Assembly: GCA_017465575.1 (NCBI GenBank)
Contig: JAFTVX010000040.1
Span: 1 to 35,046 of the forward strand
Direction of reading: 5' to 3'
Length of the DNA: 35,046 bases
Source: Alistipes sp.
Lineage (GTDB): Bacteria; Bacteroidota; Bacteroidia; Bacteroidales; Rikenellaceae
Shown here: positions 408 to 34,978 of the stretch, piece after piece
Numbering within the stretch: position 1 is the first letter of the stretch
How the letters are laid out: every line of letters begins with the position of its first letter
Translations under genes and position numbers: made by a program
The notes under the pieces: generated by a model
Told to the model about the DNA's origin: nothing
Seen by the model: the letters and a program-made list of their open reading frames with translations, nothing else
Databases searched by the model: none

Positions 408-549
408 CTTCCAGCCACCACTACCAATTTCTTGTCAGTTAGGCTTGGCTCAGCGCAAGAGAATCCCCCAAGGGATAGTACTAAAAGGTACAGCCCTTGG
501 GGGATTGCTATTGGGATAGACCGCAGATTGCGGCTTTTCACGGCAAATT
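408..549 (-). repeat. Composite hairpin element, copy 1 (3' of rny)
   Basis: Read on the minus strand it begins at the rny stop codon. Hairpin 2 (521-533, stem CCGCA/TGCGG) is followed by a linker containing CTATCCCAA. Hairpin 1 (462-506) has an outer stem AATCCCCCAA pairing with TTGGGGGATT and an inner part GGGCTGTAC-loop-GTACTATCCC. The tail is one copy of the 27-nt repeat (GACAAGAAATT, 426-436) ending at CTGGAAGG (408-415). The same ordered blocks recur at 31408-31615 and 34709-34911. A role in 3'-end formation or RNA stability is possible but not shown. Confidence 0.8.
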
Positions 550-2079
550 TTACTTGGCGTAGGATACCGAACGAGTCTCACGAATCACCGTAATCTTAAC
601 CTGACCTGGATAGGTCATCTCGTCCTGAATCTTCTTGGCAATATCGTGTGATAGTGCCTCAGACTCCTGGTCAGAAAGCTTGTCGGCACCGACAATTACG
701 CGGAGCTCACGGCCTGCCTGGATAGCGTAGGTCTTGATAACGCCGGGGTACGAGAGGGCGATACCCTCCATCTCCTTGAGACGCTTGATGTACGACTCAA
801 CAACCTCGCGACGAGCACCGGGGCGAGCACCAGAGATAGCATCGCACACCTGAATGATGGGCGCAATAAGCGATGTCATCTCAATCTCGTCGTGGTGAGC
901 ACCTACGGCGTTGCATACCTCGGGCTTCTCCTTATACTTCTCGGCGAGCTTCATACCGATAATTGCGTGTGGCAATTCGGGCTCGTCATCGGGCACCTTG
1001 CCGATATCGTGCAAGAGACCTGCACGGCGTGCCGCCTTGGGGTTGAGGCCGAGCTCGGCAGCCATGATACCTGCGAGGTTAGCGGTCTCGCGGGCGTGCT
1101 GCAAGAGGTTCTGACCATACGACGAGCGGTACTTCATCTTACCGATAAGGCGGATAAGCTCGGGGTGGAGACCGTGGATACCGAGGTCGATGGTGGTACG
1201 CTTACCCACCTCGACAATCTCCTCCTCGATCTGCTTCTTGACCTTCGCCACAACCTCCTCGATGCGTGCGGGGTGGATACGGCCATCGGTAACGAGCTGG
1301 TGGAGAGCCAAGCGAGCAATCTCACGACGCACGGGGTCGAAGCCCGAGAGGATGATAGCCTCGGGGGTGTCATCGACGATAATCTCGATGCCCGTAGCTG
1401 CCTCCAAGGCGCGGATGTTACGACCCTCACGGCCGATGATGCGACCCTTGACCTCGTCAGACTCGATGTTGAATACCGTAACGGCATTCTCGATAGCGGT
1501 CTCTGTCGCTACGCGCTGGATAGATGCCACGACGATGCGCTTTGCCTCCTTCGTTGCCGAGAGCTTAGCCTCCTCGATGGTCTCTGCGATGTAGGCTGCA
1601 GCATCTGCCTTAGCCTCGTTCTTCATATTCTCGATAAGAATGTTCTTAGCATCCTCCGAACTCATGCCCGAAATCTGCTCCAAGCGAGTGTTCTGCTCCT
1701 TGATAACTGCTGCAAGCTCCTCCTTGCGTGCCTCGACGGTCTGGAACTGTACCTCGAGCTGCTCCTTACGCTTGTCGTAGTCCTGTGCTCGCTTCTCCAA
1801 GTCGCGCTCCTTATGCTGGAGGTTGGCCTCGAGCTGCTTGGCACGCTGCTCGCTCTGCTGAAGCTTCTGGTTACGCTCATTCACCTGGCGATCGTGGTCG
1901 CTCTTAAGCTGAATGAACTTCTCCTTAGCCTGCAACATCTTCTCTTTCTTTATCATTTCGCCGTCGGCCTCTGCCTGTGCGACAATGGCCTTAGCGCGTG
2001 TGCGGGCACCCATGAAGGCAGCAACTGCGCCTACGATAGCACCTACCACCACGCCGACGATTATTAAGGTAATGTCCAT
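550..2079 (-). CDS. rny: Ribonuclease Y
   Basis: This is a membrane-anchored endoribonuclease that starts mRNA decay. The 509 residues show the full family layout: one N-terminal membrane helix (about residues 4-25), a long charged coiled coil (about 30-190), a KH RNA-binding domain with the [10 protein letters not shown] loop (212-221), and an HD hydrolase domain with the metal-binding HD pair at 357-358 and further histidines (AHHDE near 394). Length is normal. The ATG at 2079 directly precedes the membrane helix, which supports the start. It is the last gene of the zapB-like - zapA - 6S RNA unit, and its stop codon abuts a composite hairpin element. Identification is firm; transcription as part of that unit is inferred from spacing and direction. 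Confidence 0.97.
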
Positions 2080-21213: not shown

Positions 21214-21287
21214 GGCTCCGTAGCTCAACTGAATAGAGTACTTGACTACGGATCAAGCGGTTACAGGTTTGAATCCTGTCGGAGTCA
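21214..21287 (+). tRNA. tRNA-Arg (anticodon ACG)
   Basis: This is a 74-nt cloverleaf. The acceptor stem GGCTCCG pairs with CGGAGTC (one G-U), with discriminator A at 21287. The D arm contains TAGCTC, and the anticodon stem is CTTGA/TCAAG with loop CTACGGA and anticodon ACG at 21248-21250. The T arm is CAGGTTTGAATCCTG. CCA is not encoded. A34 is expected to be converted to inosine so that CGU, CGC and CGA are read. Confidence 0.96.
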
Positions 21288-21491: not shown

Positions 21492-21509
21492 TTTTTATTT
21501 CTATCTTTG
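21480..21509 (+). promoter_or_regulatory. Promoter of the cobalamin uptake operon
   Basis: TTG (21480-21482), 19 nt, then TATCTTTG (21502-21509). Transcription would start just ahead of the riboswitch aptamer. Confidence 0.7.
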
Positions 21510-21517
21510 CAAAAGTA

Positions 21518-21700
21518 TTGGTTCTCGGAGGTTTTGCTAAGCCTTATGAGATTAAAAGGGAATCGGGTGAAAATCCCGGACAGTTCCCGCTGCTGTAATT
21601 CTCAAGAGTGTCTGCGACATCATTTAGCCACTGGCCATTGGGCTGGGAAGGCTTCGCAGAAGGAGATAAGTCAGAAGACCTGCCAAGCGTTTACAACGAG
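21518..21700 (+). promoter_or_regulatory. Cobalamin (B12) riboswitch
   Basis: The conserved AdoCbl-riboswitch core is present in order: GGGAATCGGGTGAAAATCCC (from 21558), then GGACAGTTCCCGCTGCTGTAA (to about 21598), GCCACTG (21616-21622), TGGGAAGG (21644-21651) and the B12 box AAGTCAGAAGACCTGCC (21668-21684). B12 binding normally lowers expression of the downstream genes. About 200 nt between the aptamer and the first ATG (to 21907) should hold the expression platform. I see no clear intrinsic terminator there, so sequestration of the start region is more likely. Confidence 0.95.
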
Positions 21701-21907
21701 ATTGTGCCTGCGGCGAATGGGCAAGTCTGCGACTGAAAATTTTTCAGGTATTATATATTATAGGTATAGCCCGTGGAGGAGCATTGTATTCTTGCCATTG
21801 GTCTATCTCACCGAAGCCTGATATCATTTAGTCCCACCCAAGTCCATAAGCCAAGAACGCTCGTTTGTGTAAAAGTTTACGGAGAATGACCTTTTAACAA
21901 ACATTTT

Positions 21908-29877: not shown

Positions 29878-31407
29878 ATGACAGAGAAGATTCTAATTAT
29901 CGACTTTGGCTCACAGTACACCCAGCTTATCGCACGACGCATTCGTGAGATGCAGGTATATTGCGAGATTCACCCCTTCAACAATGTCCCCGCACTCGAC
30001 GAGTCGATTAAGGGCGTTGTGCTCTCGGGCTCTCCACGCTCGGTGCGCGATGAGGGTGCTCCTCGCATCGACCTCGACGCCATCAAGGGCAAGATGCCTT
30101 TGCTCGGCGTATGCTACGGTGCGCAGTACCTCGCCCACTTCTACGGTGGCAAGGTTGAGGCATCGCCCAGCCGCGAGTATGGCCGTGCGCGTATGCAGGT
30201 TAAGAACGCTGCCGACCCTCTTATGGCATCGTTGAGCGCAGAGTCGCAGGTGTGGATGTCGCACGGCGACACCATCACCACCATCCCCGAGGGCTACTCT
30301 ATCGTTGCCTCGACCGAGGATGTTGCCGTGGCAGCATACCGCATCGAGGGTGAGCAGACCTGGGGCATACAGTTCCACCCCGAGGTATACCACTCGGAGG
30401 AGGGCTTTACGATGATCGAAAACTTCGTTAAGGGCATCTGTGGCTGCTCTGGCTCGTGGACTCCTGCGGGCTTTGTAGAGAGCACCGTCAAGGAGCTTCG
30501 CGAGAAGCTCGGCAACGACAAGGTCGTGCTTGGCCTCTCGGGAGGCGTAGACTCGTCGGTGGCAGCAATGCTCCTTCACAAGGCTATTGGCGAGAACCTC
30601 TACTGCATCTTCGTAGATTCTGGCCTTTTGCGCAAGAACGAGTTCGAGGAGGTTATCGACTCTTACCGCGGTATGGGTCTCAATGTCAAGGGCGTAGATG
30701 CTTCGGAGAAGTTCTTCGGCGACCTTGCAGGTGTTTCTGACCCCGAGACCAAGCGTAAGATTATCGGTCGTGACTTTGTCGAGGTCTTCGAGGCTGAGGC
30801 AAAGAAGCTCGATGGCGTGAAGTGGCTCGGTCAGGGTACCATCTACCCCGATGTTGTGGAGTCGGCACAGGTAAACGGCACGGCTGTCGTTATCAAGTCG
30901 CACCACAATGTGGGCGGTCTGCCCGAGAAGATGGGCTTGAAGGTTGTTGAGCCTCTGCGCCTACTCTTCAAGGACGAGGTGCGCCGCGTAGGTCGCTCTA
31001 TGGGTATGTCGGAGCGCCTTATCGGTCGTCACCCCTTCCCCGGCCCTGGCTTGGCAATCCGCATCTTGGGCGATATCACCCGCGAGAAGGTCGAGATTTT
31101 GCAGAATGTAGATAAGATATATATCGACACCCTCCGCGAGACGGGCTGGTACGATAAGATTTGGCAGGCAGGCGCCATCTTGCTCCCCGTGCAGTCGGTG
31201 GGCGTTATGGGCGACGAGCGCACCTACGAGCGTTGCGTGGCACTCCGTGCTGTGCAGTCTACCGACGGTATGACCGCCGACTGGGTGCATATCCCCTACG
31301 AGATTTTGGCTCGTCTGTCAAACGAGATTATCAACAAGGTGCGTGGCGTAAATAGAGTAGTCTATGATATATCGTCGAAGCCACCCGCAACTATTGAGTG
31401 GGAATAG
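29878..31407 (+). CDS. guaA: GMP synthase (glutamine-hydrolysing)
   Basis: Converts XMP to GMP using glutamine and ATP. 509 residues. The N-terminal class I glutamine amidotransferase domain has nucleophile C79 in [10 protein letters not shown] and the His-Glu of FHPEVYH. The ATP-pyrophosphatase domain follows with [11 protein letters not shown], and then the GMPS dimerisation domain ending KPPATIEWE. It follows guaB in the same direction after 169 nt that hold the long hairpin and an AACTAA-rich leader. Its stop codon abuts composite element copy 2. Confidence 0.97.
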
Positions 31408-31615
31408 TAATTTCTTGTGAAAAGGGGTCATTTTCGACCCATCCCAAAAAGTTGAGTGCCTCGGGCTGTACTTCTTGTACTATCCCGAGGCACTCACTTT
31501 TGCGATGAGCCAAACCTAACCCCTTTTGACAAGAAATTAGGCTCACACTCTGACTGCAAATCGAGGCTTGCGCGCTTTTGACAAGAAATTAGGCTTGCGC
31601 TGACCTGTAGGTGCT
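31408..31615 (+). repeat. Composite hairpin element, copy 2 (3' of guaA)
   Basis: It begins immediately after the guaA stop with TAATTTCTTGTGAAAAG. Hairpin 2 is GGGTC/GACCC (31425-31440). The linker ATCCCAAAAAG follows, then hairpin 1 (31454-31495), whose outer stem is GAGTGCCTC/GAGGCACTC around GGGCTGTAC-TTCTT-GTACTATCCC. Next come CTTTTGCGATGAGCC and three ~24-28-nt repeat units starting at 31528, 31552 (degenerate) and 31580, the first and last reading GACAAGAAATTAGGCT. The outer stem differs from copies 1 and 3 at almost every base, but pairing is kept. Confidence 0.85.
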
Positions 31616-31619
31616 TTAT

Positions 31620-31728
31620 TAGGGAATTTAGTGAGTTTAAGGAGTGTAGTGAGCTTAAGGATAGATGTCGGTAGCGCTTTCCCTAACTTCTCTAAATTCC
31701 TTAATCTCCCTAAATTCACTCTGCTATT
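31620..31728 (+). repeat. Palindromic iteron array A5
   Basis: Left-arm units such as AGGGAATTTAGTGA and GTTTAAGGA, and right-arm units such as CCCTAACTTCTCTAAATTCC, flank the central GATGTCGGTAGCGCTT. That centre matches array A3 (ATGTTGGTAGCGCTT), and the end CTATTGC also matches. It directly follows composite element copy 2. Confidence 0.8.
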
Positions 31729-34708: not shown

Positions 34709-34911
34709 CTTCCAGTCAGCACGACCCAATTTAGCGTCAAGAGTGCGTGAGCCTAATTTCTTGTCAGAAGTGCGTGAGCCAAATTGCTTGTCAGAAGTTG
34801 TGAGATGTGGTCTATCGCAAAAGAATCCCCCAAGGGATAGTACAGAATAGTACAGCCCTTGGGGGATTACTTTTTGGGATAGGCCGCAGATTGCGACTTA
34901 TCACAAGAAAT
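34709..34911 (-). repeat. Composite hairpin element, copy 3
   Basis: On the minus strand: ATTTCTTGTGATAAG, hairpin 2 (GTCGCA-ATC-TGCGGC, 34883-34897), CTATCCCAAAAAG, hairpin 1 (34824-34868; outer stem as in copy 1, loop TATTCT), CTTTTGCGAT. Three 27-nt units then follow (GACAAGCAATTTGGCTCACG, GACAAGAAATTAGGCTCACG and a degenerate GACGCTAAATTGGG), ending in CTGGAAGG (34709-34716) as in copy 1. Unlike the other two copies it is not directly downstream of a gene in the same sense. Confidence 0.85.
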
Positions 34912-34978
34912 CATAAGTGTCCACTAAAAAATCGAAATAGTTCTTTGAAATGATTGATATTTAATTTGTTATGCAAGT

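Follow-up and report, generated by a model that had tools for sequence, protein, structure and literature searches.

Long palindromic repeats that usually start at in-frame stop codons form an apparently mobile family in Alistipes

The genome of an Alistipes species carries at least 120 non-redundant copies of a palindromic element that usually starts exactly at the in-frame stop codon of an upstream frame, in the sense of that gene. Three copies lie in the window, the whole analysed stretch of 35,046 nt (Alistipes sp., assembly GCA_017465575.1, contig JAFTVX010000040.1, positions 1 to 35,046, forward strand). The initial annotation of the window recognised a structured element in these three copies and missed the family as a dispersed repeat that is anchored at stop codons and apparently mobile. 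The stop-codon anchoring, the patchy spread and turnover, the comparison of G.T with A.C mismatches, the palindromes in other phyla and the lack of a Y1 transposase in the congeners searched are new here. No earlier description of the family was found in the literature searched, with subscription papers mostly outside that search. The earlier statement that no named family has this layout holds for Rfam, in which no family reaches its gathering threshold on the element. A permissive Rfam search gave matches on the element that all stay under the gathering scores. For seven other loci, Rfam gave no match on the elements.

Copies in the window

The copies were initially placed at 408-549, 31408-31615 and 34709-34911. 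All three are present, but their true boundaries are 426-550 (-), 31408-31538 (+) and 34782-34913 (-). The earlier extents of the last two copies were too long because a second, orphan 3' arm had been taken in (31575-31591; 34756-34771). The copies and their parts are located as follows.

31408..31538, + strand: complete type A element, directly 3' of guaA
31409..31427, + strand: outer arm, 5' side AATTTCTTGTGAAAAGGGG, partner of 31520-31538
31520..31538, + strand: outer arm, 3' side CCCCTTTTGACAAGAAATT, from folding and alignment pairing
31426..31439, + strand: 'hairpin 2' region, with which the outer stem competes; 73% of cells paired
31440..31451, + strand: middle stem, 5' side CATCcCAAAAAG, from alignment pairing
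31453..31496, + strand: apical hairpin with covarying stem, CT/TAT internal loop and GTAC/GTAC tip stem
31466-31467 (CT) and 31481-31483 (TAT), + strand: internal loop of the apical hairpin in the guaA copy
31497..31507, + strand: middle stem, 3' side CTTTTGcGATG, T-rich, immediately after the apical stem
31575..31591, + strand: orphan extra 3' arm
426..550, - strand: second copy, right half shortened, overlapping the rny stop codon (550-552)
34782..34913, - strand: third copy, an exception to the stop-codon rule
34756..34771, - strand: orphan extra 3' arm adjoining the third copy

The window genes with an element at the stop are those of the glutamine-hydrolysing GMP synthase (guaA) and ribonuclease Y (rny). 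In the guaA copy, the element's own first bases TAA come after the TAG stop at 31405-31407. None of the ORFs listed for the window ends at the third copy. Comparisons of the predicted folds with those of shuffled sequences gave z values of -4.44, -10.78 and -7.85 for the three copies, and none of the 200 shuffles of each copy folded as well. Further inverted-repeat modules lie 3' of the elements at 302-390 (TTAACTCATTTTAACCCA type) and 31623-31700 (AGGGAATTTAGTGAGTTTAAGGAG type), and stretches like these come after elements elsewhere in the genome. The window also contains a cobalamin riboswitch at 21502-21701 (+) (RF00174, 106 bits) and a tRNA at 21214-21287.

Family size and anatomy

A covariance model was built from 25 copies, which had been picked by the CT/TAT motif with at most one substitution per half. 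The search of the genome with this model scored 150 of 733 candidates; many of the 150 places are the two strands of one palindrome and were merged by hand. After 80 stretches were read, at least 120 non-redundant elements were counted, a lower bound since only 150 of the 733 candidates were scored. The covariance-model search that the initial annotation had proposed, with a lack of further copies as the result that would speak against a structured element, thus found them in abundance. When one copy was used together with its flanking sequence as a nucleotide query against the same genome, 51 matches were obtained, part of which concern a different repeat further downstream.

Each element is one imperfect palindrome of ~130 nt. 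The consensus of the 25 type-A copies has 131 positions and starts with TAATTT. In type A, the outer stem pairs AATTTSTTGTGAWAAGGGG with CCCCTTYTGACAASAAATT. Further in come the variable 'hairpin 2' segment and then a middle stem (CATCcCaAAAG / CTTTTGcGATG) that contains a C.C mismatch, and the apex is composed of a 13-pair apical stem, the CT/TAT internal loop and a GTAC/GTAC tip stem. The outermost block, which had earlier been taken merely as a start, is in fact a paired arm. Across the 120 copies, the core is CT/TAT in 41, AAATAC/GTATGT in 55, CAGTAC/GTACAG in 16, another GTAC/GTAC form in 6 and unclassified in 2. Thus, the CT/TAT loop, earlier described as fixed, is invariant in the 25-copy alignment but is found in only 41 of 120 copies family-wide, indicating a loop that is fixed within its type and not within the family.

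All types have in common an arm frame with near-constant ATTT and AAAT close to the ends, in which positions 4-6 are constant in at least 117 of 118 copies. Arm positions 7-9 vary and are mostly complementary; the outermost two positions vary too. A tail motif GTGCTGATTGGAAGGT follows 60 of 119 elements when up to four substitutions are allowed. With at most two substitutions, 28 occurrences remain in the loci read, of which 26 lie behind a modelled element and two behind a truncated 3' arm. Since the strict motif is found only behind elements or arms, the 3' tail seems to belong to the mobile unit. Elements are often stacked head to tail, with further copies either abutting the first (AAATT|TAATTT) or sitting in its tail. 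Two elements are chimeric (L245:981-1113 and L247:936-1066): their halves match different copies and join at the apical core, giving a mismatched apical stem.

Anchoring at stop codons

In 59 of the 98 first-in-array copies of this genome, the stop codon of an ORF of at least 60 codons lies at offset 0 of the element, and all 59 stops are TAA. The remaining first copies comprise 27 with a stop within -11 to +10, one with a stop at -54 and 11 with no ORF stop within -60 to +12. The mirror test on the opposite strand and the other end gave a stop in only one of the 98 copies. The element-free 3' flanks (170 sequences) contain on average 1.6 TAA and 1.7 TTA per 100 nt; at this density, free insertion at such triplets would place less than a quarter of the elements at a stop (rough arithmetic). 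The wider set consists of 114 elements with a TAATTT-like start, the eight other-phylum loci and any elements lacking such a start being excluded, and the first TAA of the element is the stop of an upstream frame of at least 80 codons in 65 of them.

Distribution and turnover among relatives

The covariance model matched 19 of 61 genomes, all 19 being among the 37 of the same genus. It had no match in the other 18 of these 37 congeners or in 24 genomes of other families. The match counts per genome take both strands, with the top values noted as at least 56; 11 of the 37 congeners have 36 matches or more. Seven weakly positive congeners are mixed: by eye, several of their matches are palindromes with other arms, and two (L157 and L163) look like coding sequence. 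The loci L153, L154, L160, L298 and L312, from congeners or related genomes poor in type-A copies, have palindromes with other arms and the same apical core, and L160 has 23S and 5S rRNA upstream.

The guaA and rny stops in congeners are empty, filled with an element of the same type, or otherwise filled. Among 36 pairs of sites whose upstream sequences are at least 87% identical, different elements occupy the same stop in pairs of 96.0, 97.25 and 98.25% upstream identity. The rny copy of the window and that of a 96.0% identical relative have the left half in common and not the right half. One 127-nt sequence is present as two identical copies at different genes, and 22 pairs of equal-length copies differ at three positions or fewer. 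A near-identical pair of one filled and one empty site was not found among the 36 pairs, and exact ends, a target duplication and the insertion itself were not seen; the 3' junction triplets vary. Since chimeric copies exist, some of the turnover may have come from copies recombining with each other.

Pairing and covariation

In the 25-copy alignment, 94.8% of 1115 cells are paired vs. 84.8% after shuffling, and both sides have changed in 19 of 45 pairs; any of five measures was reached by none of 500 shuffles. Related sequences may beat such shuffles without structure, and the argument rests on the 19 pairs and on a control with slid partners, which pair in 45-54% of cells only. The earlier claim that the stems change with their pairing kept is thereby borne out. 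The 'hairpin 2' stem, which had been put forward as one of these stems, is the weakest part, with 73% of its cells paired and a varying register. Cells altered on both sides number 85 vs. 7 altered on one side with pairing kept, the cells being sequences and not events. Alignment columns 14 and 123 inside the outer stem covary as a non-pair (10 T/C and one A/C vs. 13 A-T), and this change combines freely with the compensatory change at columns 7 and 130.

A folded sense RNA is expected to tolerate G.U and not A.C. The nine apical pairs of 170 type-A elements, which are those with the exact core from all genomes read, comprise 1347 Watson-Crick, 49 G.T, 58 A.C and 76 other combinations. Two apical positions hold 28 G.T and 32 A.C, compared with 19 and 21 at the other seven, and their mismatch load may reflect register. 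The arms of 70 of these elements have 601 Watson-Crick, 8 G.T, 11 A.C and 10 other combinations. When the arms are counted across all types in this genome (118 copies), the values are 999, 7, 31 and 25, respectively; the excess of A.C probably stems for the most part from a single arm variant (GCC/GAC, by eye). As G.T is no commoner than A.C, the counts argue against selection acting mainly on a folded sense RNA. The initial annotation had suggested selection on folded RNA or single-stranded DNA; a constrained folded strand is supported, whereas sense RNA as its main form is disfavoured by the counts. What is maintained is pairing as DNA or on both strands, and the G.T and A.C counts do not speak against use of both strands.

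The same data bear on an old set of palindromes that is homogenised and diversified by recombination and arm-to-arm copying with no dedicated enzyme. The 85 two-sided vs. 7 one-sided cells, the chimeric halves and the lack of a G.T surplus speak for it. However, it leaves unexplained both the arrival of elements at new stop codons in exact frame and the persistence of fixed mismatches (the internal loop and the C.C mismatch), and we regard it as quite improbable.

Of 117 elements, 113 have a T-rich 8-mer behind the apical stem, compared with 24 of 117 in a shuffled control (one shuffle per element). An A-rich 8-mer precedes the stem in 75 of 117 (a count without shuffles). A terminator role is compatible with pairing kept on both strands. 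The elements might be read as cis-acting 3' UTR RNA elements, terminators or 3'-end stabilisers that are inherited with their genes, immobile and kept by selection on folded mRNA. The position right at stop codons, in the sense of the gene, agrees with this explanation, as does the T-rich stretch, and several element-free orthologous genes show terminator-like hairpins at that place (by eye). However, a terminator scan called a site inside only one of the three window copies, and G.T is not favoured over A.C, although use of both strands would blunt the latter point. The patchy distribution within the genus, the different elements at the same stop of genes that are 96-98% identical and the identical copies at different genes also weigh against an immobile, inherited element, which is an unlikely explanation.

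Palindromes outside the genus

A pattern scan of genome contigs for the exact core GGGCTGTACN{3,8}GTACTATCCC gave at least 114 stretches. Among the 80 core matches listed, 72 are from Alistipes or Rikenellaceae and eight from Chitinophagaceae, Spirochaetaceae, Proteobacteria, Deltaproteobacteria or Desulfovibrionales records. About ten matches are expected by chance in 257 Gb (rough arithmetic), so single core matches mean little. Five non-Rikenellaceae genomes, chosen because the core scan had matched them, contain 5, 3, 3, 1 and 5 occurrences of the core; the reversed pattern is absent from all five. The exact core was not found in 246 other Bacteroidota genomes or in viral contigs.

In these five hosts, too, long palindromes are formed, by arms of unrelated sequence. 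A search of the three Proteobacteria/Desulfovibrionales-type genomes with an arm sequence from outside the core gave 7, 5 and 49 places, and 30 of these 61 were read, one of them (L356) being a chance match inside a gene. In 22 of 30 Desulfovibrionales-type loci, an ORF stop lies at -20 or -21 from the arm motif, falling in CTAG at the start of the palindrome; GGGCTGTAC is present in 23 of the 30 loci and the full core in 6. In the Spirochaetaceae genome, the core of two of the three copies is preceded by an ORF stop at a distance of 44-46 nt, and the Chitinophagaceae genome has a stop beside the core in none of five. Judged from these sequences, the likeness outside the genus may reflect descent from one another or convergence.

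Search for a moving enzyme

The Y1 transposase domain (Y1_Tnp, PF01797) was found in none of 41 congeners, none of three further Rikenellaceae and none of four of the five other hosts, the Chitinophagaceae genome having one. The same search detected the domain in 5 of 14 genomes taken as controls, E. coli among them. These results bear on GTAG-type REPs or REPINs moved by a Y1 tyrosine transposase (RAYT), which the present elements resemble in copy number, palindromy, non-coding dispersal, position mostly 3' of genes and an asymmetric unpaired tail. However, GTAG REPs are 20-40 bp long with an unpaired GTAG, whereas the present element is ~130 nt long, starts with TAATTT in its consensus and not with GTAG, has a stop codon as its start in 59 of 98 first copies, and occurs in a genus in which no Y1 transposase was found. 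Movement by a RAYT is disfavoured and very improbable.

A classical MITE, which derives from a DDE insertion sequence by deletion and is recognised through terminal inverted repeats, would match the inverted arms, the almost constant ATTT/AAAT near the ends (positions 4-6) and the non-coding, dispersed nature of the family. MITEs are 70-300 bp in size with inverted arms and non-coding (PMC3733652). However, arm positions 7-9 vary with compensation, and no parent element with a gene between the arms was found in the loci read (arm pairs < 7.5 kb). A pattern search showed that 65 of 146 5' arms are without an exactly complementary 3' arm and that no pair is 300 nt or more apart. With the varying 3' junction triplets and no target duplication seen, a MITE is a rather improbable explanation.

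Clustering of the neighbouring genes gave no convincing candidate by eye; the largest cluster, an ABC-type ATPase, covers 10 loci and the others are small. At the other-phylum loci, the recurring frames look, by eye and among the matches listed, like translated repeats and a few duplicated genes. The intervening sequences of 23S rRNA with a PF05635 protein are palindrome-associated repeats in related hosts. They differ in that PF05635 does not track the present elements: it scores above the cut-off in the element-free genomes G001, G007 and G024, has no match or only matches under the cut-off in the element-rich genomes G006, G011, G022 and G035, and model R1 has no match beside 14 of its loci. 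At L318:1464-1842, a PF05635 gene lies between its own TTAGTTTTTAGTTGTTAG-like inverted repeats.

Discussion

The palindromes are probably non-autonomous mobile elements that function in the manner of a REP or REPIN. A putative enzyme would recognise the folded strand, the candidate recognition parts being the ATTT/AAAT ends, which hardly vary, and the apical hairpin with the small loop inside it, and would insert the unit at TAA or TAG. Within this genome, types with shared arms have different apical cores, which weakens the case for the core as a recognition part. Also speaking against the mobile reading are the searches that found neither a Y1 domain in the congeners nor a candidate neighbour family, the third window copy and the 11 of 98 first copies with no ORF stop at them, the full core in only 6 of 30 Desulfovibrionales-type loci, the five Chitinophagaceae cores without a stop beside them, and the covariation of columns 14 and 123 as a non-pair. 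Insertions at stops would survive because the protein stays intact there, and also because the apical stem, being GC-rich and followed by T-rich sequence, could replace the native terminator. In integrons, attC sites are recombined by IntI at the GTTRRRY box. More tentatively, and with some doubt, the elements could belong to an undescribed mobile class in at least three phyla, defined by precise insertion at stop codons, recognition of a folded hairpin, a stop codon of its own, and a non-Y1 enzyme possibly reading single-stranded or transcribed gene ends.

By analogy, REPs and REPINs may serve as the nearest working model. REPs of E. coli that lie close behind stop codons reportedly affect translation (Liang, Rudd and Deutscher 2015); these REPs lie near the stop codon, whereas in the present element the stop codon is formed by its own first bases. 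MITEs are alike in size, inverted arms and non-coding nature, whereas here neither a parent insertion sequence nor a target duplication was seen. CGTC REPs are CGTC-tagged palindromes of 20-40 bp in five phyla, including Bacteroidetes and Spirochaetes, and are stated in the parts of the source consulted to have no dedicated transposase (Di Nocera et al. 2013, PMC3733652). In those parts, they are described neither as ~130-nt palindromes nor as anchored at stop codons, and the question of how they spread with no known transposase is left open (PMC3733652). By eye, the consensus of the 25 type-A copies has neither an unpaired CGTC tag nor a CCA-like tail.

If the mobile reading is true, this DNA family limits the harm to its host by landing exactly at stop codons, and a novel enzyme places DNA there. 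The spread of REP-like repeats without a known transposase would become testable, because a single genome offers more than 100 copies, some of them recent and nearly identical, and there are sister species with none. The 3' ends of genes in these gut bacteria would then swap faster than the genes themselves change.
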